Source: a virus | IMG/VR virus record: IMGVR_UViG_3300002835_000043 | Coordinates: 54,302 to 118,301 of that record | Direction: 5' to 3' (one strand) | DNA length: 64,000 bases | Shown: positions 1,025 to 45,458 of the stretch, one piece after another | Layout of the letters: each line of letters opens with the position of its first letter | Numbering within the stretch: the first letter of the stretch is position 1 | The notes under the pieces: model-generated | What the model saw: the letters and a program-made list of their open reading frames with translations, nothing else | Databases searched by the model: none | What the model was told of the DNA's origin: nothing | Program-made: the position numbers and the translations under genes

Positions 1025-1026
1025 AC

Positions 1027-2871: not shown

Positions 2872-2872
2872 A

Positions 2873-12349: not shown

Positions 12350-12567
12350 ACCAAAAAATAAGAGTTGAAGGACAACCCAATTTATGCCGTGATAAATATT
12401 CAAGAGCACTTTTGAATACTAATGTCAATGAAGTTATTACGGCTAAAAATAGAAGAAAAGAAAGAGAAAGATTAAGCGGTTTAGAAGAAACAGTAGGATC
12501 ACTAAAGCAGGATATAACCGAATTGAAAGATTTGTTAAACAATCTAATACGGGAAATTAAGAAATGA
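12346..12567 (+). CDS. Small coiled-coil protein, hypothetical
   Basis: This is a 73-aa highly charged protein. Residues ~30-72 form a continuous amphipathic helix (K-N-R-R-K-E-R-E-R-L, then L-E-E-T-V-G-S-L-K-Q-D-I-T-E-L-K) with heptad spacing of Leu and Ile, suggesting an oligomeric coiled coil. Both ends overlap neighbours by four bases (ATGA), so it is almost certainly translationally coupled to the giant protein before it and the fibre after it. Similar small coiled-coil genes sit beside fibre genes in marine T4-like phages, and an assembly or trimerisation aid is one possibility. No function can be assigned. Confidence 0.7.
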   Translation: MNQKIRVEGQPNLCRDKYSRALLNTNVNEVITAKNRRKERERLSGLEETVGSLKQDITELKDLLNNLIREIKK

Positions 12568-17345: not shown

Positions 17346-17346
17346 T

Positions 17347-22455
<5,109 letters not shown>

Positions 22456-23671: not shown

Positions 23672-24496
23672 ATGGCTAAACCAGCCAGCAGAGAACAATT
23701 AAAAGATTTTTGTCTTAGAAAACTGGGTTATCCAGTTATTCAAATAAATGTCGATGATGCCCAAATAGAGGATCGTCTAGACGATGCTTTGCAATTTTTT
23801 GCAGAATATCATTTTGATGGTGTCGAAAAGGTATACATGCGTAAGCAGATTGAACAAAAAGACATAGACAGAGGATATATTGATCTAACAGAAGCAACTA
23901 CAGCAGACCCAGGAGCAACTGTGCCTATCGTGGATGCTCCCGCATTAGATCCAGATGGCAATTCTATCATATCAGTAACAAAGGTATTCCAGTTGTATGA
24001 TACCCTTGGTGGCACTGGTATGTTTGATGCACGCTACCAGATCGCTTTAAACGACTTATACGGTCTTCGCACAAACACCTATAGTCAGTCTTTGATAACA
24101 TATGCAATAACAAGAAGCCACATGCAGATGTTACAAGATATGTTAACTCCGGAGAAGACTTTGGAATTTAGTCGTGTGACAAACAGAATATATGTAAACA
24201 TGGATTGGAAGGGTCAAACATATCTTGGTCAATATATGTTATTCGAAGCATACAAGATATTGAATCCAGAAGCATATACTGAAATATACAACGATAGAAC
24301 ATTAAAACTTTATACTACCGCTCTTATTAAACAACAATGGGGAGCAAATATGATGAAGTTTGGTGGTATGGAGTTACCGGGTGGAATTGTTCTGAATGGT
24401 GCTGAAATATTCCAAGAAGCAACATCAGAAGTACAAAAATTAGAAAACGAAATGCAATCTAAGTGGGAACTTCCTCCTCAATTCTTTGTAGGATAA
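23672..24496 (+). CDS. 13: Neck protein gp13
   Basis: At 274 aa (T4 gp13 is 309 aa), this matches gp13 from the N-terminal LKDFCLRKLGYPVIQINVDD through D-D-A-L-Q-F-F-A-E-Y-H-F-D-G and the central MDWKGQTYLGQYMLFEAYK block to the end. In T4, gp13 and gp14 form the neck that seals the filled head and joins it to the tail. The ATG follows a seven-T run and uses the GAGGAGA of the terminator's 3' arm as its ribosome-binding site. gp14 begins two bases after its stop. It is mainly helical, with no oddity except its unusual leader. Confidence 0.93.
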   Translation: MAKPASREQLKDFCLRKLGYPVIQINVDDAQIEDRLDDALQFFAEYHFDGVEKVYMRKQIEQKDIDRGYIDLTEATTADPGATVPIVDAPALDPDGNSIISVTKVFQLYDTLGGTGMFDARYQIALNDLYGLRTNTYSQSLITYAITRSHMQMLQDMLTPEKTLEFSRVTNRIYVNMDWKGQTYLGQYMLFEAYKILNPEAYTEIYNDRTLKLYTTALIKQQWGANMMKFGGMELPGGIVLNGAEIFQEATSEVQKLENEMQSKWELPPQFFVG

Positions 24497-24497
24497 A

Positions 24498-25199
24498 ATG
24501 GCAACAAATCCATATTTTAAAAATCAAGGTTATAAACCTACTCAAAATCTGATAGAGGATTTATCAGAAGAGGCTATCAAAGTAAATGGTATTGATGTTG
24601 TTTATATTATAAAAACAACAGATAAAGTTGACCAGTTATTTGGTGATAATCAACATGGCAAACTCAAAAATTCTTTTGGAATTGAAATGTATTTAAAGAA
24701 TGCAAAGGGATTTGAGGGAGAAAGAGATATAGTAAATAAATTTGGTATGGAAGTTAAAGATAATGTTACTTTGATTGTATCTAAGAAAAGATTTAGAGAA
24801 GAATCTTTCAAACTACCACAATTAACTGGTCGTTTATACCCAATGAATAGACCAATTGAAGGTGATTTGATTTACTTGCCACTTGCACAAACATCTGACA
24901 ACTTATATGAAATTAAGTTTGTTGAAAATGAAGATGTTCTTTATCAACAAGGCGATTACTACACATTTAGACTAGATTGTGAACTATATAAGTACTCTAT
25001 GGAAGATATTAATACAGGATTCAGTAAGATTGATGATATCAAATCTGAATTGGTACAAGAAGTCGATGTTGATGGTGACGGTATAGCAGATTATATTATG
25101 GATAAGAAAAAGATAAATGACAATACCCAGATTCAAAATGAAGCAAATGATATTATAGATTTTACCGAGAAAGATCCATTCTCTGAGGGTAATTACTGA
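24498..25199 (+). CDS. 14: Neck protein gp14
   Basis: At 233 aa (T4 gp14 is 256 aa), it has the gp14 hallmarks: NPYFKNQGYKPTQNLIEDL at the N-terminus, the strand L-P-Q-L-T-G-R-L-Y-P-M-N-R-P-I-E-G-D-L-I-Y, and an acidic C-terminus ending in D-P-F-S-E-G. It partners gp13 in the head-completion/neck complex and contacts the portal. It starts two bases after gp13 and overlaps gp15 by one base (TGATG), so the three neck genes are translationally coupled. Confidence 0.92.
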   Translation: MATNPYFKNQGYKPTQNLIEDLSEEAIKVNGIDVVYIIKTTDKVDQLFGDNQHGKLKNSFGIEMYLKNAKGFEGERDIVNKFGMEVKDNVTLIVSKKRFREESFKLPQLTGRLYPMNRPIEGDLIYLPLAQTSDNLYEIKFVENEDVLYQQGDYYTFRLDCELYKYSMEDINTGFSKIDDIKSELVQEVDVDGDGIADYIMDKKKINDNTQIQNEANDIIDFTEKDPFSEGNY

Positions 25200-25864
25200 T
25201 GTTTACAAATTTCTATCATGGCACTATAAGAAAAATGGTGACTGCCTTCGGCACCTTATTTAATAACATTTATATCGTAAGAAACGATGGAACTACCACA
25301 AAGAAAATAAAAGTCCCACTGATTTATTCTCCAAAAGAAAAGTTTGTTCATCGTTTAAATTTAGATGTAGATAAGACAATGGTTCAAACTATTCTTCCTA
25401 GAATGGGATTTTCGATAACAAGTATGTCATATGATGCTGACAGAAAGAAAAATTCATTAAATAAAAGATGGAAACAAGAAGTCGGCACTAATGATGATAT
25501 AACCTTTCAATATCGCTATGAAGATGTTCCATATAATATAGATTTTGAATTATACATTTATGCAAGAAACATCGATGACGGTCTACAAGTTGTAGAACAA
25601 ATATTACCATTCTTTACTCCAGATTTTACAATAACAATAAAACCAAAAGTATTGGACAACACTTTAGAAAAAGTAGATATTCCAATAATATTAAATCAAA
25701 TTACACCAAACGAAGTATATGATCAGAGTTTTTCTGAAGAAACAAGAATGTTAACTTGGGATTTGCAATTTACCGCTAAAGCAAATCTATATGGTCCGGT
25801 TAGAAATTCTTCTAGTATAATTAAAGATGTTAAGGTTAATCTTTTTGATTTCGATGAGGTCTAA
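25199..25864 (+). CDS. 15: Tail completion/sheath stabiliser protein gp15
   Basis: At 221 aa (T4 gp15 is 272 aa), diagnostic blocks are Y-H-G-T-I-R-K-M-V-T-A-F-G-T-L-F-N-N-I near the N-terminus, the V-P-L-I-Y-S-P-K-E-K-F strand, and I-L-P-R-M-G-F. In T4, gp15 forms the hexameric ring on top of the assembled tail that interacts with gp14 when the head docks. ATG overlaps the gp14 stop. In T4 gp16 would follow, but here about 11 kb of adhesion genes intervene. Confidence 0.92.
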   Translation: MFTNFYHGTIRKMVTAFGTLFNNIYIVRNDGTTTKKIKVPLIYSPKEKFVHRLNLDVDKTMVQTILPRMGFSITSMSYDADRKKNSLNKRWKQEVGTNDDITFQYRYEDVPYNIDFELYIYARNIDDGLQVVEQILPFFTPDFTITIKPKVLDNTLEKVDIPIILNQITPNEVYDQSFSEETRMLTWDLQFTAKANLYGPVRNSSSIIKDVKVNLFDFDEV

Positions 25865-25866
25865 AT

Positions 25867-26040
25867 ATGGCATATAAGAAATACGCTTCAATAAGAGTTA
25901 GACCTGTTATTTTTGAAAAAGATACGAATGGTGATTTTATACTAGATACAAATAACGATAAGATAATTTTAGTTCAACCTAATAATGTAAATTCAACAGA
26001 ACCATACGACTACTTAGTAGAAATAGAGGAATTTGAATAA
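25867..26040 (+). CDS. Small hypothetical protein between gp15 and fibre
   Basis: This 57-aa protein begins M-A-Y-K-K-Y-A-S-I-R-V-R-P-V-I-F-E-K and ends in an acidic E-E-F-E. It starts two bases after gp15 and its TAA overlaps the ATG of the fibronectin-III protein (TAATG), so it is in the same translation chain and very likely real. Predicted strands and acidity suggest a small structural or attachment protein. I do not recognise a family. Confidence 0.7.
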   Translation: MAYKKYASIRVRPVIFEKDTNGDFILDTNNDKIILVQPNNVNSTEPYDYLVEIEEFE

Positions 26041-29000
26041 TGTCACAAAGAGATCAATTTGCACCCGGTGTTGGTTCTGGAATTTATGGTTCAGGAGAAC
26101 CTGTCGGTAATATAGTTTTTCAATTTAGTGATATTCCATCTCCTCCTACAAATTTAATCGCCTCTAGTAATTTATATACAGACGGTATTGAATTACAATG
26201 GCAACCAAGTGAAAAGGCAGTTTTTTATAAAATTTATAGAGATTTTAATTTTTTAATAGAATTAAATAATTTAACATTAAATACAAATAATACATTTACA
26301 TACAAGGACACAAATGTAGAAGAAGGAAAAATTTATACTTATTCAGTTAGTGGAATTAATAATTCTGGAGAAAGTCAACAAAGTAACACGGATACTGGTT
26401 CTATAAAAATTAATGGTGTTCAAAATTTAACAGCATCACAAACATTACAAAGTACTATAAATTTGTCATGGGATTCTAATCCTAATGCAGTAAATTATAT
26501 TGTTTATAGAGGAAATACTACAAATTTAGAAAATATGATAATTTTGGGAATAACTTCATCAAATTCTTTTATAGATTCATCAGATCTTATATATGGTAAT
26601 ATTTATTACTATAGAATAATACCGGTATCGGGGGATGGTAATGGTATAGAAAGTTCACACACTTCTGGGTTTTTATTCGTTAATAAACCAACCTGTCCAT
26701 CAATAAATGTAAGTTATGGAACATATACAGATAAAATAATATTATCATGGAATTCTGTTCCAACTGCAACAAATTATAGAGTGTATAAAAATGGTATACA
26801 AATACACAATACCACAGAACTAACATACACAGATACATCTATACAACAAGGAATAGAATATCAATATCTAGTAATATCAGAAAATCAAGCAGGACTATGT
26901 ACAGATACAAATGATAATTATGAAATAGGTTGGGCAAAATTATCCCCACCACAATCACTAACTGCTGCTGATGGACAAGATGAAAAAAATATTACTCTGA
27001 GTTGGTCTTCTGTTCAAAATGCAACACATTATAATATTTATAGAAGACCTGCAATTATTGGTGTACCATATTCATTAATCGATTCTGTTCAAACTTTTAA
27101 TTACCAAGATACAAATACTGATTTAGTCTATGGAACTACTTATGTTTATAAAATTCGTGCTGCGTGTCATATAAACGGTATAGAAAAAGAAAGCGCCGAT
27201 AGTAATGAAGACACTGGTATCTTAAAAAACCCAATACCAAATGCACCTGTTATTGTTGCATCAAATGGTGATTATGATAATAAAATTTCTATATCTTGGA
27301 ATCCAGTTCCAAATGCTTCTGTCTATATTGTTTATAGAGATTCAAATCAAATTGCAGTAGTAACTGATACTTTTTATGATGATATTGATCCATCAGTATC
27401 TTCTTGTACAAATTATACTTATAGAGTAAAAGCAAAAAATATGTTCGGGTTTGAGAGTTCTTTTTCAAATTCAGATATTGGTATTAAAAAATTACAAACA
27501 CCATCTGGCTTAGTTGCGAGCGATTCACAATTTACCGGAAAAATTTATGTGTCATGGAATTCTGTTCCAGATGCTTTAAATTATACTTTATATAGATCAC
27601 TATTTAATACCGAAGCAAGCATGGTTCCTCTCGTAACAACTTCAACACCATTTTATGATGATACAAACACCGATTTAGTTTATGAAACCACATATTATTA
27701 TGCAGTAAAAGCAAATTGTATTTGTGCTCTTTGCTCTACAAATGGTGAAACTACAGCATTTAGTAATATCGATTCTGGTGTGTTAAAAAACATGTCAACA
27801 CAATTTACTCCTCCAAGTGCACCAACCACACTCACAATTGCATCACCAAATACTACTTCTATATTATTAACTTGGTCACCAGTTACTGCTGCAACTCTTT
27901 ATAAAATTTATAGAGATGGAATACAAGTAGGAATAACTCTTGCAGGAACAACCACATATACAGATACACCAACACCAGGTATTCAGTACACTTACACTGT
28001 AAAGGCACAGAATAGTGATGGTGAAAGTTCTTCATCACCATCTGCTACTGGTTATATTATATTAACAACACCAACTAGTTTTGTAGCAACAAAAAATGAA
28101 AATTCCACAGAATCTTATATTAAATTAACATGGTCTGCTGTTCCCGGTGCAACAAGTTACACAATTTTTAGAGGAATAAGTTCGAGCACACTATCACAAA
28201 TAGATACAAGTTATACTACGGAATATTTTGATACAAATACAGATTTATCATATAATACAATTTATTACTATCGAATAAAAGCAAATTCATCTTTTGCAAG
28301 TGCAGCAAGTTCACTTAGTAATATAAACAGTTCTTCTACTGGAATTTTAAAATCTCCCCCTCCAACTAATTTTAATTTAAATTCTATAAGTTCAATTTAC
28401 ACAGATAAAGTAATTATAACTTGGAATTCATCGCAATATGCATATGGTGGCTATTCTGTAAATAGAGATGGAATACCATTAACAAACGGATATTCTTCAT
28501 CTAATTTTTTAACACATAGTAATACATTTCAACTAGGACAAACGGATTGGATTTTGTATAATAATTCAACAATTAATTCTAGTCCACAAATTCCTATGCC
28601 AAATGATGATACAAATGGTGAATATGGTAAAATATTATTATTATCTTCATCAAAAACCCAAAATAACGGTATATACCAAGTAATAAAAAATGTAGCAAAT
28701 TCAACAATATACACGCTTTCTTGCTATGTTAGATCTATTACTGACACAGCAAAATTTAGAATGAGTTATTTTAATGGTGGTGTAAGTAGTTTTTCAAATG
28801 AATTTATAGCCAACACAACACCAACGAGATTTACTTTTACATTTACAACTACTACAAATAATATAACATCAAATATTGCAATTGGAAATAATTTTACTAC
28901 ATCTGGTGGAACTACATTTTGGGAAGATGGTAGTATTGTAATATGGGGTGCTCAATTAGAAAAGGGTTCTGTTGCAACTACATTAATTTCAACAACAACA

Positions 29001-29840
29001 GCACCAGTCACATCAACGACATATACAGATACAACAGCAACATATGGAACCAACCATTCATATAGTGTAACTGCTTTGAATAATATAACATCAACAAACA
29101 GTAGTAATTCTGTAAATGGATCTCTAAAATTATTAGCACCAACTTTAACTTCTGTAACAAATAATTTAACAACAAAAGTAACTTTAAATTGGAGTTCTAT
29201 TTCTGGTGCATCTACATATAAAGTTTATAGAGGAACAACTAATGATACTTCTTCTATGTCTCTTTTATCTAGTGGTATTTCCACTACTTCATATGATGAT
29301 ACAACTGCTACTGCTGGAACTACTTATTACTATTCAATAAAAGCCACAACATCATTTGGTACTGATAGTGATTTTGGTAATGTGGTTTCTGGTAGTAAAG
29401 TATTACAGGCAGTACAACCTGGAGATATTTTTGAAAATTATTTTAGCCATAATAAATATGATTATACAAATGTAACATTAACAGATTCGAGTAATAACAA
29501 TGTTACATTCAATCATTTTACACATGAATCTTTTTATAATCCAATGGCAGCAATAAATTGGAATTCTTTACAGAGAGACAGAGATAATAGATATTCAAAA
29601 CAAATATTTTATTCAAATAAGTTATCAAGTACAAATAATGAAGTAAATTATCTTGAAAGAATAATAGTTAACAATTTTAGCAATACCGCAAATGGATTTA
29701 GTGGTACTAAATTATATAAAAATTTTGATGTATATAGAGGAGAAGGAGACTCGCAATATGAAGACGACATTATTTGTACTTTTCCAAATTATACGGAATT
29801 ATTAATTAAAACAGTTGAACCAATTTTACAACCTAAATAA
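26040..29840 (+). CDS. Multi-fibronectin-III tail fibre with nested CBM-like domain
   Basis: This 1266-aa protein has a short Gly-rich N-terminal segment, then about ten tandem fibronectin type III domains of ~90 residues. Each shows the pattern I-x-L-x-W, then Y-x-I/V-Y-R, then Y-x-D-T, then Y-Y-Y-x-V/I-K-A. In the ninth domain the chain leaves after Y-S-V-N-R-D-G-I-P-L at about residue 815 and returns at T-T-Y-T-D-T near residue 990. Between them lies a separate ~170-residue carbohydrate-binding-like domain closing with I-V-I-W-G-A-Q-L-E-K-G. The final ~130 residues are unrelated and Asn/Tyr-rich. FnIII arrays on phage virions usually aid weak surface binding. It starts within TAATG after the small gene upstream and lies between gp15 and gp16. 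Confidence 0.8.
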   Translation: MSQRDQFAPGVGSGIYGSGEPVGNIVFQFSDIPSPPTNLIASSNLYTDGIELQWQPSEKAVFYKIYRDFNFLIELNNLTLNTNNTFTYKDTNVEEGKIYTYSVSGINNSGESQQSNTDTGSIKINGVQNLTASQTLQSTINLSWDSNPNAVNYIVYRGNTTNLENMIILGITSSNSFIDSSDLIYGNIYYYRIIPVSGDGNGIESSHTSGFLFVNKPTCPSINVSYGTYTDKIILSWNSVPTATNYRVYKNGIQIHNTTELTYTDTSIQQGIEYQYLVISENQAGLCTDTNDNYEIGWAKLSPPQSLTAADGQDEKNITLSWSSVQNATHYNIYRRPAIIGVPYSLIDSVQTFNYQDTNTDLVYGTTYVYKIRAACHINGIEKESADSNEDTGILKNPIPNAPVIVASNGDYDNKISISWNPVPNASVYIVYRDSNQIAVVTDTFYDDIDPSVSSCTNYTYRVKAKNMFGFESSFSNSDIGIKKLQTPSGLVASDSQFTGKIYVSWNSVPDALNYTLYRSLFNTEASMVPLVTTSTPFYDDTNTDLVYETTYYYAVKANCICALCSTNGETTAFSNIDSGVLKNMSTQFTPPSAPTTLTIASPNTTSILLTWSPVTAATLYKIYRDGIQVGITLAGTTTYTDTPTPGIQYTYTVKAQNSDGESSSSPSATGYIILTTPTSFVATKNENSTESYIKLTWSAVPGATSYTIFRGISSSTLSQIDTSYTTEYFDTNTDLSYNTIYYYRIKANSSFASAASSLSNINSSSTGILKSPPPTNFNLNSISSIYTDKVIITWNSSQYAYGGYSVNRDGIPLTNGYSSSNFLTHSNTFQLGQTDWILYNNSTINSSPQIPMPNDDTNGEYGKILLLSSSKTQNNGIYQVIKNVANSTIYTLSCYVRSITDTAKFRMSYFNGGVSSFSNEFIANTTPTRFTFTFTTTTNNITSNIAIGNNFTTSGGTTFWEDGSIVIWGAQLEKGSVATTLISTTTAPVTSTTYTDTTATYGTNHSYSVTALNNITSTNSSNSVNGSLKLLAPTLTSVTNNLTTKVTLNWSSISGASTYKVYRGTTNDTSSMSLLSSGISTTSYDDTTATAGTTYYYSIKATTSFGTDSDFGNVVSGSKVLQAVQPGDIFENYFSHNKYDYTNVTLTDSSNNNVTFNHFTHESFYNPMAAINWNSLQRDRDNRYSKQIFYSNKLSSTNNEVNYLERIIVNNFSNTANGFSGTKLYKNFDVYRGEGDSQYEDDIICTFPNYTELLIKTVEPILQPK

Positions 29841-29845
29841 TCAAT

Positions 29846-32626
29846 ATGGCACAATTTATAAACATATCAGATCCTGAATTACAAAAATTTCCACCGTGGA
29901 AAGCACATTCGTGGAGACAAATATCAAGAGAATTAACTGGCATAAGAGGATGTGCTCCTGCTGTTCATTTTCACGATACAACTCATGATAATAGTACTGA
30001 TTTATTAGCACCAGATGACAGAATTTTCAAATGGTATGTTGGTGAACAAATGTATTTTTGGGGACAAGAAATGTGGTCTTCTGTGAATAAAAATAACCAC
30101 AATCATGATAATTTAAATATATATTGGAGAAATTTTGGTGAAGATGATACCAAATGGGTATTGATAAAAGGAACTGGCATTTATGGGTTTAATGCAGCAG
30201 AATATGTATTTTATCCAAATTTAAATCTTAGAAGTTTTGATACATCAAATAATCCACATGCTGGCGCGGCAAACCCCAATTCGTTAACAACATCTGATCC
30301 TGTAGGATATCCTTATATCCGAGAAGATTATGTAACCGGATTTACATCTAATTCTAATAGAGGCGAATCCTATGGATTTGGAAGTACTAGCAATGATAGA
30401 GGTAATGCTATAACATCAACCAGATCTTATACACATGTAAGATGTATGACTTTTTTGAGAGAAGGAGAATATAAAATAGAAATAAGTGAAACCGGAACAT
30501 GGGATGCATCTGCTTCACTAAATGGTAAAAGTTTACCGGCAAAATCTATTGAATCAAATCAGATACTTTATACTAATAGCACATTAACACCAACCGAAAT
30601 AGACAAACTTATAAAATTTAATCCAATAAATTATTCCTCAAATTTAGGTTTATATGGTACATTACCAGAACAATTATCATCGTATACAAATTTACCACAA
30701 ACATATCGTTCACGATTCACAAAAACATTAATTTTAAAAATTTATACTAAAAATAAAGATTTAGTAACTGGTAATGATATATCTTTTCCAGCAGATATAA
30801 CTTTACAACCAGGAACAATAACTACTGGTAGTGTAATAACTCAACCATATCAAAGAGTTATTGGTTATGGTGCAGTATATGAATATATACCATCAGGTAA
30901 TTTTGTTGGTTACTCTACAGTACATACAGATACAACAACACCAGAACAAAGATTTGGTAAAATTAATCAAAGATGGAATGGAACTGCAAAAACATTAATA
31001 AATAGAAGACATTTAGTTGTGGAAGGATTAACATTAAGACCATCTGCAAATAGAAATGTAAATCAAGATAGAAATTTATTTCCATTTATATCGACAGCAA
31101 ATACTATCGTAGATTTAAGAGGTAGTATATTTAAAAATTGTACATTTGAAGATATGGATTTTAATGGTCAGGCAGATTGGATTTGTTTTAGTGGGTGTAA
31201 ATTTATTAATTGTAAATTTAAACGATGTGCAATAAATATGCACGCAGACTCTGTTCTTTTTATGTATTGTGATTTTGAAGGAAGAACAGATTACATAGAT
31301 TCATTTAATGTTTCTGGTATATCAAATGCTAATATTTGTTGTAATTTTGAAAACAATTTTAGAACTTTCTTTTTTGCTACAGACAGTTCACCTTGCACAG
31401 ATAATTTATGGTTTAAATGTATATTTGATACAACTTTATTTAATAGTGGCGGATCTGAACAATTTATAGCAGAACAAGTAGAATCTCGACTTGTTTCAAC
31501 ACCCACCGATTCAACAAGCGAAATACCGATACTTGCAAAACAAAAATTTAGAGAATTTGCAAGAAATATGTTTGTATATAACAGAATATACGATTCTAGT
31601 ATATTTACTATAACAACATATAATGCATTTTCTAGAGCAAATTTATACACTTTAAATGAAACATTTTGTCCAACTGTAGTAGATACTACTACTATAAATT
31701 CTACTAATAACACATCAACAACTGGTATTAGTGGTGGTTCATATTATGATGTTCATTTTTGGAATCATTATAGCAGATTTTCAATGACACTCGGTGAAAA
31801 TACCCATCATACTAGATTTATAGAAAATCTAATCACTGAACCACATTTATCCGGAAATAGGTGGAGTTCAGAAAATGGTTCATGGAATGTTCTCAGTCAA
31901 TTTTCATATCCATTTTTCTCAATACATAGTTTATATGAAAATCCTGCAAATGGTTTTTGGGATTGTAGACATACATCAAGAGCTACAGGTAATAAATTAA
32001 TAGGAAATAAAATAATTAATTGGGGTGGTCGGTTTTCAAAAACTCCAACATCACCATGTTCAGTTTATTTAAATTTTTATAATTTAGAACACTGCCAGAC
32101 ATGCAATGATACAACTTACAATTCAGATACTAATGATGGTACTGGTAATTTTACTCAAAAATACTTACAAAATAAAATGTTAGATTTTTTGGATGATTAT
32201 CCATTTATTAGTGGCGATTCTACTAAGTATGGAAAATATATAAATGTTGCTTATAAGAATGTGTTTCTTACACCAACTGCATATAGTCGAAGAACTATAA
32301 ACAATCAAGGTTATTCTGGATCACCCTGTTCTGGTTTTAATGATAGCAGTATTTCAATTGGTACATTTGATCATATAACATTTCCAGGTGGTACTACTTG
32401 CAAAGAAAATGCTAATTATTTTAATTGTAATTCAATTTATATTGGTTCAGGTACATCATACCCCGATCCATATAGTGATACATTTGGAACACATGGAAAA
32501 CAAGGCAATAATGACTATAGAAGAATAAGTGTACCAACTTACACAAATTCTTCAACTCCAGTTACTATATCGGCATCTACTATATTTACTGGTGATATAT
32601 TCACCGCAATAAATAGTTTTAGTTGA
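29846..32626 (+). CDS. Pentapeptide/beta-helix spike protein A
   Basis: This 926-aa protein is the first of three tandem paralogues. The shared N-terminal block (G-I-R-G-C-A-P-A-V-H-F near residues 31-41) is followed by the Y-F-W-G-Q-E-M strand. A central module near residues 420-480 has five-residue steps (F-K-N-C-T, F-E-D-M-D, F-I-N-C-K, F-K-R-C-A), the pattern of a quadrilateral pentapeptide-repeat helix, then further beta-helix turns. The long C-terminal part, rich in His, Cys, Trp and Tyr, is likely the distal receptor-facing or enzymatic region; no catalytic signature is recognisable. It starts five bases after the FnIII fibre. Role inferred: tail spike or adhesin. Confidence 0.7.
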   Translation: MAQFINISDPELQKFPPWKAHSWRQISRELTGIRGCAPAVHFHDTTHDNSTDLLAPDDRIFKWYVGEQMYFWGQEMWSSVNKNNHNHDNLNIYWRNFGEDDTKWVLIKGTGIYGFNAAEYVFYPNLNLRSFDTSNNPHAGAANPNSLTTSDPVGYPYIREDYVTGFTSNSNRGESYGFGSTSNDRGNAITSTRSYTHVRCMTFLREGEYKIEISETGTWDASASLNGKSLPAKSIESNQILYTNSTLTPTEIDKLIKFNPINYSSNLGLYGTLPEQLSSYTNLPQTYRSRFTKTLILKIYTKNKDLVTGNDISFPADITLQPGTITTGSVITQPYQRVIGYGAVYEYIPSGNFVGYSTVHTDTTTPEQRFGKINQRWNGTAKTLINRRHLVVEGLTLRPSANRNVNQDRNLFPFISTANTIVDLRGSIFKNCTFEDMDFNGQADWICFSGCKFINCKFKRCAINMHADSVLFMYCDFEGRTDYIDSFNVSGISNANICCNFENNFRTFFFATDSSPCTDNLWFKCIFDTTLFNSGGSEQFIAEQVESRLVSTPTDSTSEIPILAKQKFREFARNMFVYNRIYDSSIFTITTYNAFSRANLYTLNETFCPTVVDTTTINSTNNTSTTGISGGSYYDVHFWNHYSRFSMTLGENTHHTRFIENLITEPHLSGNRWSSENGSWNVLSQFSYPFFSIHSLYENPANGFWDCRHTSRATGNKLIGNKIINWGGRFSKTPTSPCSVYLNFYNLEHCQTCNDTTYNSDTNDGTGNFTQKYLQNKMLDFLDDYPFISGDSTKYGKYINVAYKNVFLTPTAYSRRTINNQGYSGSPCSGFNDSSISIGTFDHITFPGGTTCKENANYFNCNSIYIGSGTSYPDPYSDTFGTHGKQGNNDYRRISVPTYTNSSTPVTISASTIFTGDIFTAINSFS

Positions 32627-32637
32627 GGGATAATTTA

Positions 32638-35145
32638 ATGGCTTGGAAAGCATATACAGATACACAGGCACTAAAAGAACTAGCAGGACTTCGTGGTGTT
32701 GCACCATCTGTTAGATTTTTAGAAAAAAGACCACAAAGTTCTACTAAAGAAAAAATATATCATGTTAAAACAAATACACCAATATATCTTTGGGGTGTAG
32801 AAATGTTTCAGGGTGGTTATGATTGTGTTACAATAAACAGAATAAATTCCGATGGAACATTAACTCTTTACAAAGATAGTGGTGGTAGTATCGAAAATTT
32901 TATAAATCAAGATAAAAAAGTATATAATTTTAATTTAACTGAATATCCATCATTTGATGATTTTTGGTCTGATCCTTATCTTGTAAATTATATTGCTGGT
33001 GGTGATACAACAAATACTTCAGATGATGAAATTAAAAAAATAGTTAAAAGCAATTTTCATAGATGTTTTGTGTTTCCAAATGAAGGTTATTATAAAATAA
33101 CTTTAGATGAAAGGTTAAATCCACTTACTGGTTCAACGGGATTTGTTGCAAATTATAGTGAATCACAATATGCACCAGTTACAGATGTTGTTTCTAAATC
33201 ATACTTTCCTTGGGTATACTCTGATGATCTTTCTACAGCAAATAAATTTGTTGTAACATCAAAATTTTCCAATTTAAGTTCTCAAGAAAAAACTATAGGA
33301 CACTTCTCACCACCAATTCAAGCAGTTAGAACAGAATATGAATTTAAAAGAGAAATAATTATCAGAGTAATAGATGAAACAAAAGATATAGTTGATGGTA
33401 CTACTTCAATTTCAAGAAGAGTTATTGCTCTTAATCCCGGATTATCGGATAAATTAAAATATAATTTAACACCAGTTTCTGAAGGTAGCGGAACTAAACT
33501 AGGTTCTTTTCATATAAAAGGAAATAATACATTTATTGGTGGCAAAGAATTATTCAATAATGACAACAGAACCCAATATACAAATGGGGCAGGAATTAAT
33601 ACCATTAGACTTATTTATCCATTACCATTTTTAACCGTTGGTTTTGATATTGGTCATACGAATCAGGGAATTCCAATTATTAAAAATACAGATTTAGAAG
33701 ATTTATATTTTGATAACGATATGGAATTTGCTCCAATACAAAAAGAATTGTATGTTGGTAGCCAAGTAAATAATGGTACATTGAGTGGAACTTCAACTGT
33801 AAATGGTGTTACTAATCCATACAATCCATCAAATAATAATAATGATTCTGGATTAAGAAAATTAAAAATTATAAATGCTAGAAATAGTATTATAGAAAAT
33901 TTAAATTTTTTTGGAGCAGATGGTAATCTGACTGCAAGTGAACCTAGATTTCGTGGTCCAAATCCTTGGTGGATTGCAACACACAACTTAACAGAATACA
34001 ATGATAGATATCAAGTAAAATATGCTGCACTGGATTTTTCGGGTTCTATAATAAGAAATTGTGTTTTTGAAGGAGATAGTTTTACTACTATGTCTTTTAG
34101 AAGCGATCAATATGGAATTTATACAAGGTATATATTTGATGGGTGCACATTTGAAAATTGTACATTTAGAAGATGTAATTTTTTAGGGAGTTGTAATGGT
34201 ACTGGTATATTAATTAAAAATTGTAAATTTGAAAAAGCTCAAAAAAATGGCAGTATTAGTGATAGTACTTTTGGTGTATTTCAAGCAGACTCTATGTGCA
34301 TAATGGGTTGTAATTTTGAAGATCTTGGTAGAACATTCTGGATAGAACCATATGGACCTATTTCAAATAATATCTACATTAGATGTACCGATTCAAGAAA
34401 ATCAAGCCAACACACAGCAGGAGAAGGAGCAACAATAGATGCTCCAAATGAAGGTGGTTTTCAATGGGCTGGCGCAAATGGGTTTAACAATACTGACCGA
34501 GTAGATAAACATTTAGTAACTGGAAATATTTTTATATTTAATGAAAGTTCATATTCATCTGGTGCAAATCTTCTTCTAAGTTCTTATAATGCTATAGCAA
34601 AATTAAACTTAAGTGCATTTACAACACATTTTAATGATCCTGGGTGTTATTTAAAACCTCCTCCAAGTTCAAATGGAAATTCCTATAATGTATACATGCA
34701 TAATTATTCATATGGGACTGTCTTAAAAATTACTGATTTGGAGAATACATCAATACATAATAGATTTTTAAATTGTGTTTATCAAGGAGCTCCCGGTGGA
34801 GCAAATAGTTTCGGAAGTTTTATGCATGTAGCAAATACAATTTATGGCAATCCGCCATTGTTTAAAGTTACATCTAACGCCAAAAGTAATTTAGTAAACA
34901 ATTGTTCTATAGTCGATTATTTGGATAAAATACAATATCCAAGACCTTCGTGGTATCCATTAAATGATTCTGGTAATTCTGGTATTTATGGTGACCAAAC
35001 ACCTACAAATAATGGGTTTATATATGCAAATTCAACCACAGGAGAAATGCATAAAAATCTTTCAGACAGTCAAATACAACAAAAACTAGATAATAATGAA
35101 AATATAATTAATAATTTAACTAAAATAGGATTGAGACACATATAA
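32638..35145 (+). CDS. Pentapeptide/beta-helix spike protein B
   Basis: Starting from the ATG at 32638, which has GAGGG eight bases upstream, gives an 835-aa protein and avoids a TTG at 32623 inside the upstream gene. Residues ~14-30 carry L-A-G-L-R-G-V-A-P-S-V-R-F, followed by I-Y-L-W-G-V-E-M as in the flanking paralogues. Pentapeptide steps near residues 495-530 (F-E-N-C-T, F-R-R-C-N) form the beta-helix core, extended by further N-C-x-F rungs. The C-terminal half differs from protein A, suggesting shared scaffolds with different tips. Likely tail spike, located between gp15 and gp16. Confidence 0.7.
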   Translation: MAWKAYTDTQALKELAGLRGVAPSVRFLEKRPQSSTKEKIYHVKTNTPIYLWGVEMFQGGYDCVTINRINSDGTLTLYKDSGGSIENFINQDKKVYNFNLTEYPSFDDFWSDPYLVNYIAGGDTTNTSDDEIKKIVKSNFHRCFVFPNEGYYKITLDERLNPLTGSTGFVANYSESQYAPVTDVVSKSYFPWVYSDDLSTANKFVVTSKFSNLSSQEKTIGHFSPPIQAVRTEYEFKREIIIRVIDETKDIVDGTTSISRRVIALNPGLSDKLKYNLTPVSEGSGTKLGSFHIKGNNTFIGGKELFNNDNRTQYTNGAGINTIRLIYPLPFLTVGFDIGHTNQGIPIIKNTDLEDLYFDNDMEFAPIQKELYVGSQVNNGTLSGTSTVNGVTNPYNPSNNNNDSGLRKLKIINARNSIIENLNFFGADGNLTASEPRFRGPNPWWIATHNLTEYNDRYQVKYAALDFSGSIIRNCVFEGDSFTTMSFRSDQYGIYTRYIFDGCTFENCTFRRCNFLGSCNGTGILIKNCKFEKAQKNGSISDSTFGVFQADSMCIMGCNFEDLGRTFWIEPYGPISNNIYIRCTDSRKSSQHTAGEGATIDAPNEGGFQWAGANGFNNTDRVDKHLVTGNIFIFNESSYSSGANLLLSSYNAIAKLNLSAFTTHFNDPGCYLKPPPSSNGNSYNVYMHNYSYGTVLKITDLENTSIHNRFLNCVYQGAPGGANSFGSFMHVANTIYGNPPLFKVTSNAKSNLVNNCSIVDYLDKIQYPRPSWYPLNDSGNSGIYGDQTPTNNGFIYANSTTGEMHKNLSDSQIQQKLDNNENIINNLTKIGLRHI

Positions 35146-35146
35146 A

Positions 35147-36736
35147 ATGCCAAACAGTTATGTAGATTTAAGTTTTCAATTGGGATTAAGAAAAATGGCT
35201 GGCTTGCGAGGTGTCGCGCCAGCCATTAGGTGGTTTGATTCTTCTATAGGCGAAGAAGTATATGTAGTTGAAAAAAACAAACAAATACATTTATCGGGTT
35301 GTGAAATGACACCATTGGAAGCAGATTGTATTAAGATACAATATAAATCAAATGCTCTGGGTTCATATAACACTGTTAAAAATTATTATCCACAAACATC
35401 ATATACAGTCACAGATACTACAGATGGTGGGGATATACTATATACAAAAATAGTTGGATCACCAACTATGCCAAGAAACAGATATGATTATGAAACCAGT
35501 TATTTTACATATAAAAATGGTACAACAACCGTTGCACAAGAATTTGATACGCAACAAGGAATCAATGGATCAAATCTATTAAGAAATACTTATGCATCTC
35601 AAGACCCAATTGGTATTAACAATTATAATTTCTCTAGATCTATTACATTTAGAGAAACTGGTTATTTTGAAATTACACTAGATGAAGCACAATCTGCTTT
35701 ATATAAAATTACAAATACAAATTCAATTTTAACAAATCCAGATAATCAATCTGATTATAATCTATACAAAACAACAACTAGAGGACCTTGGACACCTGTA
35801 GATCATTCGATATATCCAAATGGTTCATTGTTTAAAAGAAGAATTGTTATCAGATGTGTTGAAAATTTTGATGTATTGAATTCAACAATTATACCTGTAA
35901 ATACAGATAATATAACATCTTCATTATTAGAAAGTGCTTATACACCAAATACTTCAAGAACTATTAATCGAGTAGGTTTAACAATTCAAGGAACAAATTA
36001 TACAGGTTCCACCAATAAATATTTTATAGAAACAAATTCTTTGTCATCACAAACAATGGGAACTGATGATAAAAATATAACAATAAGTTCCGGATCTGCT
36101 TATAAAATATTAAGAAATAAAATTTTTAACAATACAATATTTAATGGTTCTGGTGATTTTGTTAAAGTGGAGGTTATTGCTGGAGTTACCACTACTGTTG
36201 ATATGCGTAATTCTACTTTTATAAATTGTAAATTTAGGGGTATAACATTTGGCACAAAAAATTTTAAACAATTAATGCTGGATGGGAGTAGATTTTTTAA
36301 TTGCGAGTTTATAAATTGTAAATTTTATATTAGACCACAAAATATTATATTTAATAATTGTTATTTTAATAATCACGGAGATCTTTCTGGTTTATTTTTC
36401 TTTAATGGGTCTGATGGAAATGTGTTTATAGATTGTAGAATGAAAAATATAACCCAACCATTTTATTTTGATAATTCAAATAGTAAAAACAATATTAATA
36501 ATTTGATTTATAAAGTTTATTGCTACAATAGTATCAATATTTCAAATAAATGTTCATTTATTAAAGTAATAGGCAATACTGCTGGCACTATTGGAGTATT
36601 TACTGGTAATGTAGTAATATTAAATTATATTTCCCGTTCAATTGGTGATGTTATCAATATTGAATCTTCTGCAAGTCTTAATCTTTTTGCAATGAATTAT
36701 TTTGAATCAAGTGGATCTGTTAAACTCGGAAAATAA
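35147..36736 (+). CDS. Pentapeptide/beta-helix spike protein C (short paralogue)
   Basis: This 529-aa protein is the third paralogue. It has the shared N-terminus M-A-G-L-R-G-V-A-P-A-I-R-W (residues ~17-29), an I-H-L-S-G-C-E-M strand, the I-T-F-R-E-T-G-Y-F-E-I-T-L-D-E strand that aligns with proteins A and B, and a pentapeptide run near residues 355-400 (F-I-N-C-K, F-R-G-I-T, F-F-N-C-E, F-I-N-C-K). It ends soon after the helix and lacks the ~300-residue C-terminal regions of A and B. It is either a naturally short spike or a copy that lost its tip. ATG two bases after gene B; last gene before the terminase block. Confidence 0.7.
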   Translation: MPNSYVDLSFQLGLRKMAGLRGVAPAIRWFDSSIGEEVYVVEKNKQIHLSGCEMTPLEADCIKIQYKSNALGSYNTVKNYYPQTSYTVTDTTDGGDILYTKIVGSPTMPRNRYDYETSYFTYKNGTTTVAQEFDTQQGINGSNLLRNTYASQDPIGINNYNFSRSITFRETGYFEITLDEAQSALYKITNTNSILTNPDNQSDYNLYKTTTRGPWTPVDHSIYPNGSLFKRRIVIRCVENFDVLNSTIIPVNTDNITSSLLESAYTPNTSRTINRVGLTIQGTNYTGSTNKYFIETNSLSSQTMGTDDKNITISSGSAYKILRNKIFNNTIFNGSGDFVKVEVIAGVTTTVDMRNSTFINCKFRGITFGTKNFKQLMLDGSRFFNCEFINCKFYIRPQNIIFNNCYFNNHGDLSGLFFFNGSDGNVFIDCRMKNITQPFYFDNSNSKNNINNLIYKVYCYNSINISNKCSFIKVIGNTAGTIGVFTGNVVILNYISRSIGDVINIESSASLNLFAMNYFESSGSVKLGK

Positions 36737-36768: not shown

Positions 36769-37224
36769 ATGGAAGATAAAAAAAGTATTGACAATAAATT
36801 AGAAGATGCTTTTAATTTGCCCAAATCTGTTGGTGAAATAGTAGAGCAAGAACCAGTTATTCTTACATCAATAAATAAAAACGATGTAGCATCTGAAGAT
36901 TTTCAAGCAGTTCGGTCAAATCTTTATGATATTATTGAAAAGGGAAATAAAGCAATTGAAGGAATTCTTCATGTTGCTTCCGAGGGAGATTCCCCAAGAG
37001 CATATGAAGTTGTATCTCAACTTATCAAAAGTGTAGCAGATGCAAACAAAGATCTTCTTCAATTACACAAACAATTAAAAGAAATTAGACAAGATACTCC
37101 TGCTTCTACACAATCTGCACAAAACATTACAAATCAATCTATATTTGTAGGAAGCACAAATGAATTGCAGAAACTGCTAAGAGGTAAGATGCAGGAGATA
37201 AAGCAAATAGAATCTAATCCATGA
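36769..37224 (+). CDS. 16: Small terminase subunit gp16
   Basis: At 151 aa (T4 gp16 is 164 aa), it is predicted almost entirely helical with a central coiled coil (I-E-K-G-N-K-A-I-E-G-I-L, then A-Y-E-V-V-S-Q-L-I-K-S-V-A-D-A-N-K-D-L-L), as in T4 gp16, whose coiled-coil segments oligomerise the ring that regulates packaging. The C-terminus, with F-V-G-S-T-N-E-L-Q-K-L-L, is a conserved marine T4-like feature. It overlaps gp17 by ATGA. An AAAGG ribosome-binding site lies upstream. Assignment is supported by the immediate gp17 neighbour. Confidence 0.88.
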   Translation: MEDKKSIDNKLEDAFNLPKSVGEIVEQEPVILTSINKNDVASEDFQAVRSNLYDIIEKGNKAIEGILHVASEGDSPRAYEVVSQLIKSVADANKDLLQLHKQLKEIRQDTPASTQSAQNITNQSIFVGSTNELQKLLRGKMQEIKQIESNP

Positions 37225-38894
37225 TTGGTGATAAGAACTCATATCTCGGTAATCCAAATCTCAAGAAGACAAATGTTCCTGTCAACTTTACTCAAGATCA
37301 AGTTGAGGAATATTTAAAGTGTTCTGAAGATCCTGTTTATTTCATGAAAAATTATATTAAGATTGTCAATCTTGATAAGGGATTGATGACCTTCTCGATG
37401 TATCCATTTCAAGAAAAACTAGTAAATCTTATTCGTGACAATAGATTCGTTATTGCAAAGATGCCTCGTCAGTGTGGTAAGTCAACTACCATCATTGCAG
37501 ATATTCTACACCATGCACTGTTTAATCCAAATCAAACCATAGCAATTCTTGCAAATAAAGAAAAACTTGCAAAGGGTCATATGGATCGTTTAAAGACTGC
37601 TTATGAAAACCTACCAAAATGGCTGCAGCAGGGTGTTAAAGAATGGAATAAGCATTCTATCGAATTGGAAAATGGATCAAAAGTCATTTCGTCCGCAACA
37701 TCTGCATCTGCTATCCGTGGTGGATCTTTTAATTATATTCTGTTGGATGAGTTCGCCCATGTCCCTGAAAATATAGCAAACGATTTCTATAGTTCAGTAT
37801 ATCCAACAATCACATCCGGTAAAACTTCCAAAATGGTTGTAATTTCTACACCTAATGGATTGAATTTATATTATAAACTATGGATTGAAGCAATAGAAGG
37901 AAGAAACAGTTTCAAGCATATAGATGTTCACTGGTCAGATGTTCCCGGTCGTGATGAGGAATGGTATCAAAGAGAAATCAAAAACTTAGGTGAAGAACGA
38001 TTCCGCACAGAGCACGAATGTGATTTCATTGGTAGTACCAACACTCTTATCTCTGCAGATAAACTCAGAACAATGGTTTATAAGACTCCAATCCACACTA
38101 CCCCAGACGGATTGAAGGTTTATGAAAAACCAGTAGTAGATTCTAAAAATCCTGCAAATAATCACACCTACATTTTAACAGTTGATACTGCTAGAGGTAC
38201 TGGAAACGATTACCATGCATTCACAGTTGTTGATATAACCAAGACACCTTATAAGATAGCAGCCACTTTTAAAAATAACGAGATGTCTCCTTTGGTATAC
38301 CCAAATGCAATATACCCAATTGCCAAACAATATAATGATGCTTACATATTAGTTGAAATAAATGACATTGGTGGTCAGGTGGCTGATTTATTACATAATG
38401 AACTGGAATATGATAATTTGTTAATGTCTAGTATTCGTGGTAGAAAGGGTCAGACTCTTGATGGTGGGTTCGGAGGAAGTAGTCAAACCCAATTAGGACT
38501 CCGCACTACGAAGGCGGTAAAGCGTCTAGGATGCTCCGTGTTGAAGTCTCTGATCGAATCCAATAAACTACTCATTGCCGATTACGACATCATACAGGAA
38601 CTTGTTTCCTTTATTTCAAAAAATAATTCCTTTGAAGCCGATACTGGTCATAATGACGACTTGGTTATGTGTATGGTTCTCTTTGGTTGGTTGACGACTC
38701 AAAGTTATTTTAAAGATATGACAAATATGGATATCAGAAAAACCGTGTTTGATGAAAAATTAAAACAATTAGAAGAAGAAATGACACCGTTCGGTGTAAT
38801 TGATGATGGTATTCAAATGAATGGTGATGAAATAGACTCATCTGGAACCGTCTGGAGTGATGCCGAAAATAGAAATAATGATTTTTATACATAA
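37221..38894 (+). CDS. 17: Large terminase subunit gp17 (packaging ATPase-nuclease)
   Basis: At 557 aa (T4 gp17 is 610 aa), the ATPase domain has Walker A M-P-R-Q-C-G-K-S-T at residues ~80-88 and Walker B Y-I-L-L-D-E-F-A-H near residues 171-180, with the coupling V-I-S-T-P-N-G segment ~35 residues later. The C-terminal nuclease has the acidic residue in V-D-T-A-R-G near residue 321 and the H-N-D-D motif near residue 476. It cuts concatemers and drives DNA into the prohead through the portal. The ATG overlaps the gp16 stop, and the C-terminus is acidic. Confidence 0.97.
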   Translation: MIGDKNSYLGNPNLKKTNVPVNFTQDQVEEYLKCSEDPVYFMKNYIKIVNLDKGLMTFSMYPFQEKLVNLIRDNRFVIAKMPRQCGKSTTIIADILHHALFNPNQTIAILANKEKLAKGHMDRLKTAYENLPKWLQQGVKEWNKHSIELENGSKVISSATSASAIRGGSFNYILLDEFAHVPENIANDFYSSVYPTITSGKTSKMVVISTPNGLNLYYKLWIEAIEGRNSFKHIDVHWSDVPGRDEEWYQREIKNLGEERFRTEHECDFIGSTNTLISADKLRTMVYKTPIHTTPDGLKVYEKPVVDSKNPANNHTYILTVDTARGTGNDYHAFTVVDITKTPYKIAATFKNNEMSPLVYPNAIYPIAKQYNDAYILVEINDIGGQVADLLHNELEYDNLLMSSIRGRKGQTLDGGFGGSSQTQLGLRTTKAVKRLGCSVLKSLIESNKLLIADYDIIQELVSFISKNNSFEADTGHNDDLVMCMVLFGWLTTQSYFKDMTNMDIRKTVFDEKLKQLEEEMTPFGVIDDGIQMNGDEIDSSGTVWSDAENRNNDFYT

Positions 38895-43712: not shown

Positions 43713-45458
43713 ATGCTTGACTATTTATTACAAGTAGAATTAACAACACCAAGATTTTCTGTCAGAGTTTCTGGTATAGATGAAGTTATAATTTCTCCAA
43801 AAATCATAACTGATAGTGTCTTGCAATCAGAACATAAAGATAGAGTTTATAATTTAAAAACTCCTAAATGTCAAGATCTAGATTGTTCTGAATTTTATAC
43901 ATCTTCATTTACTTCTGGAAAAGTATCACAATGTGGTGACTGCTTACCAAGAAGAACAAAAACCACATATACAAAACCATTCGGTTGTCCACAGTGGAAT
44001 TTTTTAAGTAGATATCTTTTTGATTCTACATTCACAAAACCAACAAGAGTAAGTGATGTCACAACTTATAACCAATACATTACTTGGTTAACTGGAGATC
44101 CTGGTCAATCACAATTAAAACAATTTTTGGCAAAATCTGGTTATTGGTTAGGTTTACCTCCATGTGGAAAAGGAAGTTGGCAATGTTTGGTTGATTGTGC
44201 TGGTGGTGAAGTTGGTGGATGTTGGGATACTGATTCTCATGGTTCCGCTGGTTTTGGTTTAGTTTATAATATAAATGGTTCTAATTACCAAGTATATGAT
44301 CCTGTTCAAATTTTATTAGCAGGGTTAACTCCAAATGGTGGAAGTTTTCCTTTACTATCGGGTAATCCTTTGAGTGGATTAACAGCCAATGCCGGTAATC
44401 CTTCAGATAGCGATTATGTTGGTTGTGGTAGACCATTTACCATATTAGAAGATGCTAGAAGTTGTTTAGTAAGTCAACCAAAACCAGAAGTATGTGAGGA
44501 TGAAGAATATCAACCAAAAGAAGGTGCAAATTCAAATTGGGAAAAGAAAGCAATAGAGGGTGATTTTGGTGGAAAAAGTATTTTATCTCAAGGAGAATGT
44601 TACCTAGCACCAACTACAAGCGTTATACAAAACAGTTATTCACTTGCAGGTTCTCTTGGAGGCAACATTGATGTTGGAAGATTTGATGATCCACCTTTAT
44701 TCATAGACCAAGTTATTGAGAATTGCGGTGCATGTCTTTCAAAACTTGTAGAACAAAATGATGGACCAAGTTGTTGCCAGGTTTCATATGGAAAAATTGT
44801 AGTAAGAGATTCGCCAATTTGGGATGGATCTTCATGGGGTTCTGGTGGATTTACATGGAATAATTTTTGGGACGATAGTATTCCGGATGGTGGTTTTAGA
44901 AATGACAATAACTGTGGTGATCCAACAATTCCATCGACATGTTCTTGGAGTAGTAGTTGCGACGGTCCACAATCAGGTGAAAGTGCAAATGGCATCGGAA
45001 CCATACCATGCAATAGTGGCTCATTAAAAACTTCATGTCCAGGAGAACTGATTCAAGTTGGTCATTATGAATATTATGATAATTGTTCTGGAGAAGGAGA
45101 ATTGGTAGCACAATATCCAAAATTTATAACAGATTGTGATTGTTCTAATCTTCCTACATGCTATGAACTATATCAATGCCAATTACCATGTGCAGAAAAT
45201 AATCCAAATCCATATTATTATTCTCATGGTGCATCAAGAAATAAATCTGAATCAGAGTGTAATTTGAGTTCAGGACAACCTGGGTGTTTTGGTCTTGCTA
45301 CACTAATATGTGATGCAGAAGATAGACAAGAAAAAGGTGATTATGTTCCTGTTTGTTGTTCGGAAACTACTTCATATCTTTCAAAAACACCTGCTTCAGA
45401 TGGTACTGGTGGACCAGGAAGTGAGTTTGTCCCATGTCAATCTAACCTTTTTGGTTAA
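43713..45458 (+). CDS. Large Cys-rich hypothetical protein between portal and protease
   Basis: This 581-aa protein is of a type I do not recognise. The N-terminal ~45 residues form beta strands; from residue ~50 to the end cysteines recur every 5-15 residues, often as C-x-x-C or C-C (for example C-G-D-C near residue 72 and S-C-C-Q-V), with many Gly, Ser, Pro and Trp. The composition resembles residues 250-515 of the giant protein at 17347. It occupies the slot where T4 has only the small core genes 67/68. There is no signal peptide or membrane segment. It is preceded by CAGGA and a TATAAATG that overlaps its ATG. Possibly a secondary virion decoration protein; metal binding or extracellular disulphides are open options. 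Confidence 0.6.
   Translation: MLDYLLQVELTTPRFSVRVSGIDEVIISPKIITDSVLQSEHKDRVYNLKTPKCQDLDCSEFYTSSFTSGKVSQCGDCLPRRTKTTYTKPFGCPQWNFLSRYLFDSTFTKPTRVSDVTTYNQYITWLTGDPGQSQLKQFLAKSGYWLGLPPCGKGSWQCLVDCAGGEVGGCWDTDSHGSAGFGLVYNINGSNYQVYDPVQILLAGLTPNGGSFPLLSGNPLSGLTANAGNPSDSDYVGCGRPFTILEDARSCLVSQPKPEVCEDEEYQPKEGANSNWEKKAIEGDFGGKSILSQGECYLAPTTSVIQNSYSLAGSLGGNIDVGRFDDPPLFIDQVIENCGACLSKLVEQNDGPSCCQVSYGKIVVRDSPIWDGSSWGSGGFTWNNFWDDSIPDGGFRNDNNCGDPTIPSTCSWSSSCDGPQSGESANGIGTIPCNSGSLKTSCPGELIQVGHYEYYDNCSGEGELVAQYPKFITDCDCSNLPTCYELYQCQLPCAENNPNPYYYSHGASRNKSESECNLSSGQPGCFGLATLICDAEDRQEKGDYVPVCCSETTSYLSKTPASDGTGGPGSEFVPCQSNLFG

Follow-up and report, generated by a model that had tools for sequence, protein, structure and literature searches.

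A putative FN3-borne three-tailspike cassette at a site of modular exchange between gp15 and gp16 of an uncultured T4-like phage

A block of four genes between the tail sheath stabiliser gene gp15 and the terminase small subunit gene gp16 of an uncultured T4-like phage is probably a receptor-binding cassette, in which an FN3-repeat protein bears three tailspikes, placed at a hotspot of modular exchange. The DNA analysed (henceforth the window) comprises the rightmost 64 kb of the 118,301-base uncultured virus record IMGVR_UViG_3300002835_000043, and the block occupies positions 26040–36736, from the FN3 gene through the third spike gene. For the spikes, we infer a surface location, docking on the FN3 protein, binding of a receptor and an enzymatic activity; the cassette as a whole suggests itself as the element deciding which bacteria the virus can grip.

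The T4-like core was identified via PHROG and Pfam, and the gp13-gp14-gp15 ... gp16-gp17 order of T4-like phages (checked against T4) is present in the window, with gp13, gp14 and gp15 at 23672–25864 and gp16 and gp17 at 36769–38894. Upstream of the block, gp15 (25199–25864; this and all features of the block and its flanks are on the plus strand) matched Pfam T4-gp15_tss at 3.8e-68 as well as phrog_227. Downstream, gp16 (36769–37224) matched phrog_445 at 2.3e-38 and is followed by the terminase large subunit gene gp17 (37221–38894; Pfam Terminase_6N, 8e-27). The gap between gp15 and gp16 in T4 itself is 8 bp, so that the first-pass annotation was right in stating that gp16 directly follows gp15 there and that the window carries additional genes amid the morphogenetic ones. 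Its insertion was drawn too small, however, as it comprised the three spike genes and left out the FN3 gene (26040–29840); an open reading frame (ORF) of 57 amino acids (aa) lies, in addition, between gp15 and the block. This small ORF (25867–26040), which delimits the variable segment on its upstream side, was defined by its translation and by tblastn homologues located after gp15 in relatives, where it is kept at the same site with or without the cassette at 35–77% identity; searches against PHROG gave sub-threshold matches only. Behind it lie the FN3-repeat stalk protein (1266 aa; Pfam fn3 3.8e-18, 5 stretches), Spike 1 (S1; 29846–32626, 926 aa, with a predicted long right-handed beta-helix body), Spike 2 (S2; 32638–35145, 835 aa) and Spike 3 (S3; 35147–36736, 529 aa), the last being tipless, i.e., made up of an N-terminus and a predicted beta-helix only. 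The start of S2 was placed at the ATG at 32638 instead of the TTG at 32623, in agreement with its orthologues. Since the four genes are separated by only 5, 11, and 1 bp, they have the appearance of one transcription unit.

The three spikes are homologous tandem genes, as judged from their sequences, and the assignment rests on ORFs, profiles and a tree, supplemented by a structural model for S1 and orthologue lengths for S3. BLASTP between pairs gave 2e-14 (S1/S2), 5e-9 (S1/S3) and 2e-10 (S2/S3), and profile–profile alignment with hhalign gave probabilities of 99.6–99.8% (E 7e-24 to 7e-30) over 481–576 aligned columns, which bears out the three tandem paralogues at 29846–36736 proposed in the first-pass annotation. 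That proposal had stressed a shared N-terminus of the LRGVAPAVRF type. A hidden Markov model (HMM) of the N-terminal 110 residues indeed matched only S1, S2 and S3 in the window as well as their orthologues, and residues 1–50 rank first, or close to first, in conservation among the segments of S1 and S2; the likeness, which goes far past what chance would give, is nevertheless not confined to this region, as the aligned columns cover essentially all of S3. In a maximum-likelihood tree of 19 spike sequences, in which the long branches of L88 and L27 make the deeper joins unsure, S1, S2 and S3 formed three separate clades, each with 100/100 support, and each clade contained the same groupings (window and L002, then L003; L005 and L006). 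The triplication therefore predates the group and the genes were inherited together; recent duplication or gene conversion among S1–S3 was rejected by the tree. All three spikes are under purifying selection, with ratios of nonsynonymous to synonymous substitution rates (dN/dS) between the window and L002 of ~0.28 (S1), ~0.47 (S2) and ~0.19 (S3), compared to 0.07 for gp17.

The order FN3-S1-S2-S3 is the same in the window and in five uncultured relatives (L002, L003, L005, L006 and L088), and partial loci were found in L004, L009, L027 and L038. L088 was the only further trio locus yielded by alignment-based scans of IMG/VR. Exactly one copy each of S1, S2 and S3 was present in 6/6 complete loci, i.e., the copy number is fixed, and no relative with a single copy was found, nor was a use as an internal protein indicated. 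The gp15–gp16 interval is hypervariable among phages with 89–100% identical terminase. While gp17 is 98–99.6% identical among the window, L002, L005 and L006, their spikes drop to 48–97%, and in other phages with 89–98% identical gp17 the whole cassette is replaced: by a single, unrelated FN3 fusion of 1991 aa in L014 (gp17 98%), by ORFs of 925 and 1650 aa in L024 (90%), by a pair of ORFs of ~1585 aa in L032 (89%), in which a heparinase II/III-like domain and RCC1 repeats were recognised, and by an ORF of 3174 aa in L047 (93%). DNA identity between L014 and L006 is 96.8% before the FN3 gene begins and 94.5% from gp16 on, with nothing alignable in between. In L035, L037, L040, L042, L043 and L048 (gp17 65–70%) the cassette is absent and the interval measures ~155–230 bp, in most of them with the small ORF inside. 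In L032, the heparinase II/III-like domain is followed by RCC1 repeats within one protein of the alternative cassette (3–4760 of that contig), and the same site also encodes a Cys-rich repeat protein of 1586 aa.

An insertion at this place could also be mere cargo of the hyperplastic region, that is an internal or accessory block without a role in adsorption. The g15–g18 region of cyanomyoviruses is a hypervariable hotspot in the account of PMC2984593, which cites Millard 2009, and holds metabolic genes (PMC2984593; S-CAM3), and in HTVC008M a halogenase and an oxygenase are encoded there. The present locus shares the structural-module neighbourhood and the hypervariable insertion, yet S-CAM3 has its insertions, metabolic genes among them, between gp16 and gp17, whereas the one described here lies between gp15 and gp16 and has adhesin-like contents, namely FN3 and spike genes. 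Those replacement contents that were readable likewise include FN3, lyase, and RCC1-repeat proteins rather than metabolic genes, and the spike folds and the conserved linkage of FN3 and spike genes also argue against cargo, which we consider very improbable.

In addition to replacement of the whole, exchange of parts was found within the cassette, most clearly at a conserved linker at the end of S3 (GD-I-IESSASLNLF-MNYFESSGSVKLG; 36644–36733), whose role as a module boundary is indicated by steps in nucleotide identity and by a clean indel. The window and L002 differ at this linker by 1638 nt (546 codons), with a tip module in L002 and none in the window. L002 and L005 are ~72% identical along the spikes, jump to ~97% at S3 codons 495–515 and stay at ~97% through the tip and gp16/gp17; conversely, L005 and L006 are 98–100% identical up to the linker and ~80% identical past it. 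Near-identical S3 tips sit on diverged spike bodies. Tipless S3 proteins (529–552 aa) occur in the window, L003, L088 and L038, and tipped ones (1075–1657 aa) in L002, L005, L006 and L027. That the short S3 of the window is a pseudogene was rejected on the basis of its dN/dS of ~0.19 and the three further tipless orthologues. For the tip itself, the putative receptor-binding part of S3, nothing in Pfam scored above cut-off, the PDB yielded no convincing match, and named phages gave none; no match in bacterial genomes was confirmed, and comparison with the hydrolase-like region of L014/L024 gave weak matches only. The S3 orthologue of L006 (10781–15754 of that contig, 1657 aa) carries two different tips in tandem, of which one is common to L027 and the other is ~40% related to the tip of L002/L005.

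The diversification cassette of the first-pass annotation is accordingly retained in a modified form: the locus is hypervariable and its tips vary across relatives (in S3), but the expected variation in copy number was not found and the duplication is old. Judged by sequence comparison, diversification proceeds by swap, gain or loss of the S3 tip at the linker, by the linked genes diverging as a unit, and by wholesale replacement of the cassette. At this level, the homology, gene order, mosaic boundaries, replacement and purifying selection of the cassette are documented.

The N-terminal ~45 residues of the FN3 protein are common to cassettes with and without spikes, and a second exchange boundary is located near the last FN3 domain. 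Beyond it, a C-terminal domain of 148 aa (29394–29840; a putative docking domain) was detected by tblastn in the window, L002, L003, L005, L006 and L088, only beside spikes, and gave no match in L014 or L024. This restriction to spike-bearing loci is the best clue to the spikes being carried on the FN3 protein. In L088, an apparent frameshift (3880–4300 of that contig), either real or assembly-derived, interrupts the domain. The FN3 protein and spikes could instead decorate the capsid or neck, in the manner of Hoc-like or whisker-like fibres, and aid sticking to surfaces or mucus rather than serve in receptor binding at the tail. Such a role is suggested by the sole match of the FN3 protein among named phages, a protein of Moorella phage MCACPph1 named "Hoc-like head decoration" (E 5e-11), and by the adjacent neck genes gp13–gp15. 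FN3/Ig repeats are, however, common to many phage surface proteins, so that the Hoc-like match is generic; S1 and S3, as modelled, resemble tailspikes and beta-helices that act on polysaccharides, and wholesale replacement of alleles is more typical of host-range proteins. Decoration is hence regarded as unlikely.

Structures of S1 and of the S3 of L002 were predicted with AlphaFold2 from alignments of 6–10 sequences, and the resulting low-confidence models were compared to known structures. Residues 311–725 of S1 resembled the lyase RbmB (Z 18.0, root-mean-square deviation (rmsd) 3.8, 270 residues aligned), residues 312–801 the tailspike of Acinetobacter phage Fri1 (Z 17.0, rmsd 3.3, 265 aligned), and the S1 model also matched CBA120 TSP3 (Z 16.6, rmsd 3.8, 264 aligned). 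For S3, residues 247–531 resembled the Sf6 tailspike (Z 11.8, rmsd 4.3, 214 aligned), with further matches to RbmB (Z 12.7, rmsd 4.2, 233 aligned) and CBA120 TSP4 (Z 11.4); the epimerase AlgE was also among the best fold matches of the two models. With low confidence, the modelled bodies of S1 and S3 may therefore be right-handed beta-helices of the tailspike/lyase kind, which supports for these two proteins the spike character ascribed to all three. The predicted fold is like that of the tailspikes of Sf6, HK620, P22 and Fri1; unlike these, the proteins described here have no detectable sequence similarity to them and are three linked paralogues with an FN3 partner on a T4-like phage. A Foldseek search of the L002 S3 model against viral structures returned nothing at E <0.001, which, given how poor that model is, carries no information. 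Each body also contains a short F-x-N-C belt, at 31109–31237 in S1 (residues 422–464; Pentapeptide_4, E 2.2e-4), 34054–34197 in S2 (Pentapeptide_3, E 5.6e-4) and 36200–36373 in S3 (residues 352–409; Pentapeptide_4, E 2.5e-4), with predicted local distance difference test (pLDDT) values mostly of 45–78 in the belt region of the two models. The belt is real and resembles pentapeptide-repeat proteins through weak Pfam matches, but its scores stay below the curated cut-offs (21.7 vs 38, 20.5 vs 27 and 21.5 vs 38 bits, respectively) and the matches cover 20–61 of 500–900 residues, so that the pentapeptide-step helix of the first-pass annotation, taken as a family identity, was rejected.

Several observations weigh against a receptor-binding cassette. 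Searches of named phages with S1, S2 and S3 gave no match, and Pfam and PDB profile searches gave none to a solved receptor-binding protein or a catalytic family, the PDB profile matches being weak and mostly to pentapeptide proteins. The models cover S1 and S3 only and are weak (mean pLDDT 35.8 for S1 and 44.3 for L002 S3), and beta-helices also serve non-adhesive roles, so that a shared fold is no proof of function. The C-terminal FN3 domain is intact in five loci and frameshifted in L088, and the loci compared are metagenome contigs, six of them with a complete trio. In another reading, the spikes act chiefly as polysaccharide depolymerases that remove capsule or biofilm, with receptor choice residing in other fibres, e.g., the genes at 12564–22455. 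RbmB and AlgE among the fold matches, the heparinase II/III-like lyase domain in the alternative cassette of L032, and the further giant genes without PHROG match upstream are in line with it. The lack of a detected catalytic family in S1–S3 speaks against it, the confidence of the models is too low for a check of active sites, and many tailspikes both bind and cut; we regard this explanation as possible, yet doubtful. The two giant ORFs, upstream of gp13 at 12564–17345 (1593 aa) and 17347–22455 (1702 aa, with weak RCC1-like similarity), are likely a second fibre locus.

If the block is a receptor-binding cassette, the FN3 stalk would attach to the virion through its conserved N-terminus, with the three beta-helix tailspikes borne on its 148-aa C-terminal domain. 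The spikes, derived from an old triplication and inherited together, would share an N-terminal assembly region, probably form trimers, and recognise and perhaps cut surface polysaccharides. Recombination would take place at conserved blocks, namely at the S3 linker, with gain, loss or swap of the tip module, at the last FN3 domain, and at the flanking core genes, with replacement of the whole cassette.

The closest known arrangement, which the cassette would parallel in its mode of working, is that of the TSP clusters of Ackermannviridae (TSP1–TSP4, e.g., CBA120, S117), in which the products of tandem tailspike genes combine beta-helix bodies with conserved N-terminal parts, receptor modules are exchanged at a conserved motif, and TSP4 of Limestonevirus is tipless with assembly domains only (PMC11414711, PMC8432352, PMC8825819). 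Here, too, three tandem homologous spike genes have related N-termini, the S3 tip is present, absent or swapped at one linker, and the tipless S3 resembles the Limestonevirus TSP4 in keeping a presumed assembly part. Unlike in those clusters, a single N-terminal region is common to the three copies, the genes lie between gp15 with the small ORF and gp16, no sequence similarity to any named phage protein was detected for the spikes, and no gp10-like (XD) domain was found in FN3, S1, S2 or S3 by Pfam/PHROG at E up to 0.1, a result with which remote homology is compatible. Because of the different genomic setting and the lack of a detected gp10-like domain, the cassette was not classed as a member of the Ackermannviridae type. 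More speculatively, the locus might be one instance of a general adhesin platform of the "stalk and exchangeable head" type in this uncultured T4-like group, in which the FN3 N-terminus is the shared virion anchor and the far end is swapped between the three-tailspike branch, a fused hydrolase-like domain, and lyase/RCC1 proteins; the three-spike branch without gp10-like domains would then be a branched tailspike complex that evolved independently and may sit on the neck instead of the baseplate.

The related phages form a natural series in which the cassette is absent, replaced, a tipless trio or a tipped trio, and as several near-identical terminases occur across it, one can directly trace how core genes give way to the host-range module. 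Should the proposed function hold, a spike family without a match in the named-phage collection and a second design for multi-tailspike complexes would be added, and the gp15–gp16 interval would serve as a marker for host-range cassettes in uncultured T4-like phages.

Two further observations were made in passing. At 43713–45458 the window encodes a Cys-rich protein of 581 aa for which Pfam and PHROG searches gave no match. In S-SRM01 (MW015081.1, L102), two gene names at 128216–132177 look swapped, "tail sheath protein" and "terminase large subunit": it is the gene called tail sheath that gp17 matches, and RefSeq NC_070963.1 labels the same gene terminase.

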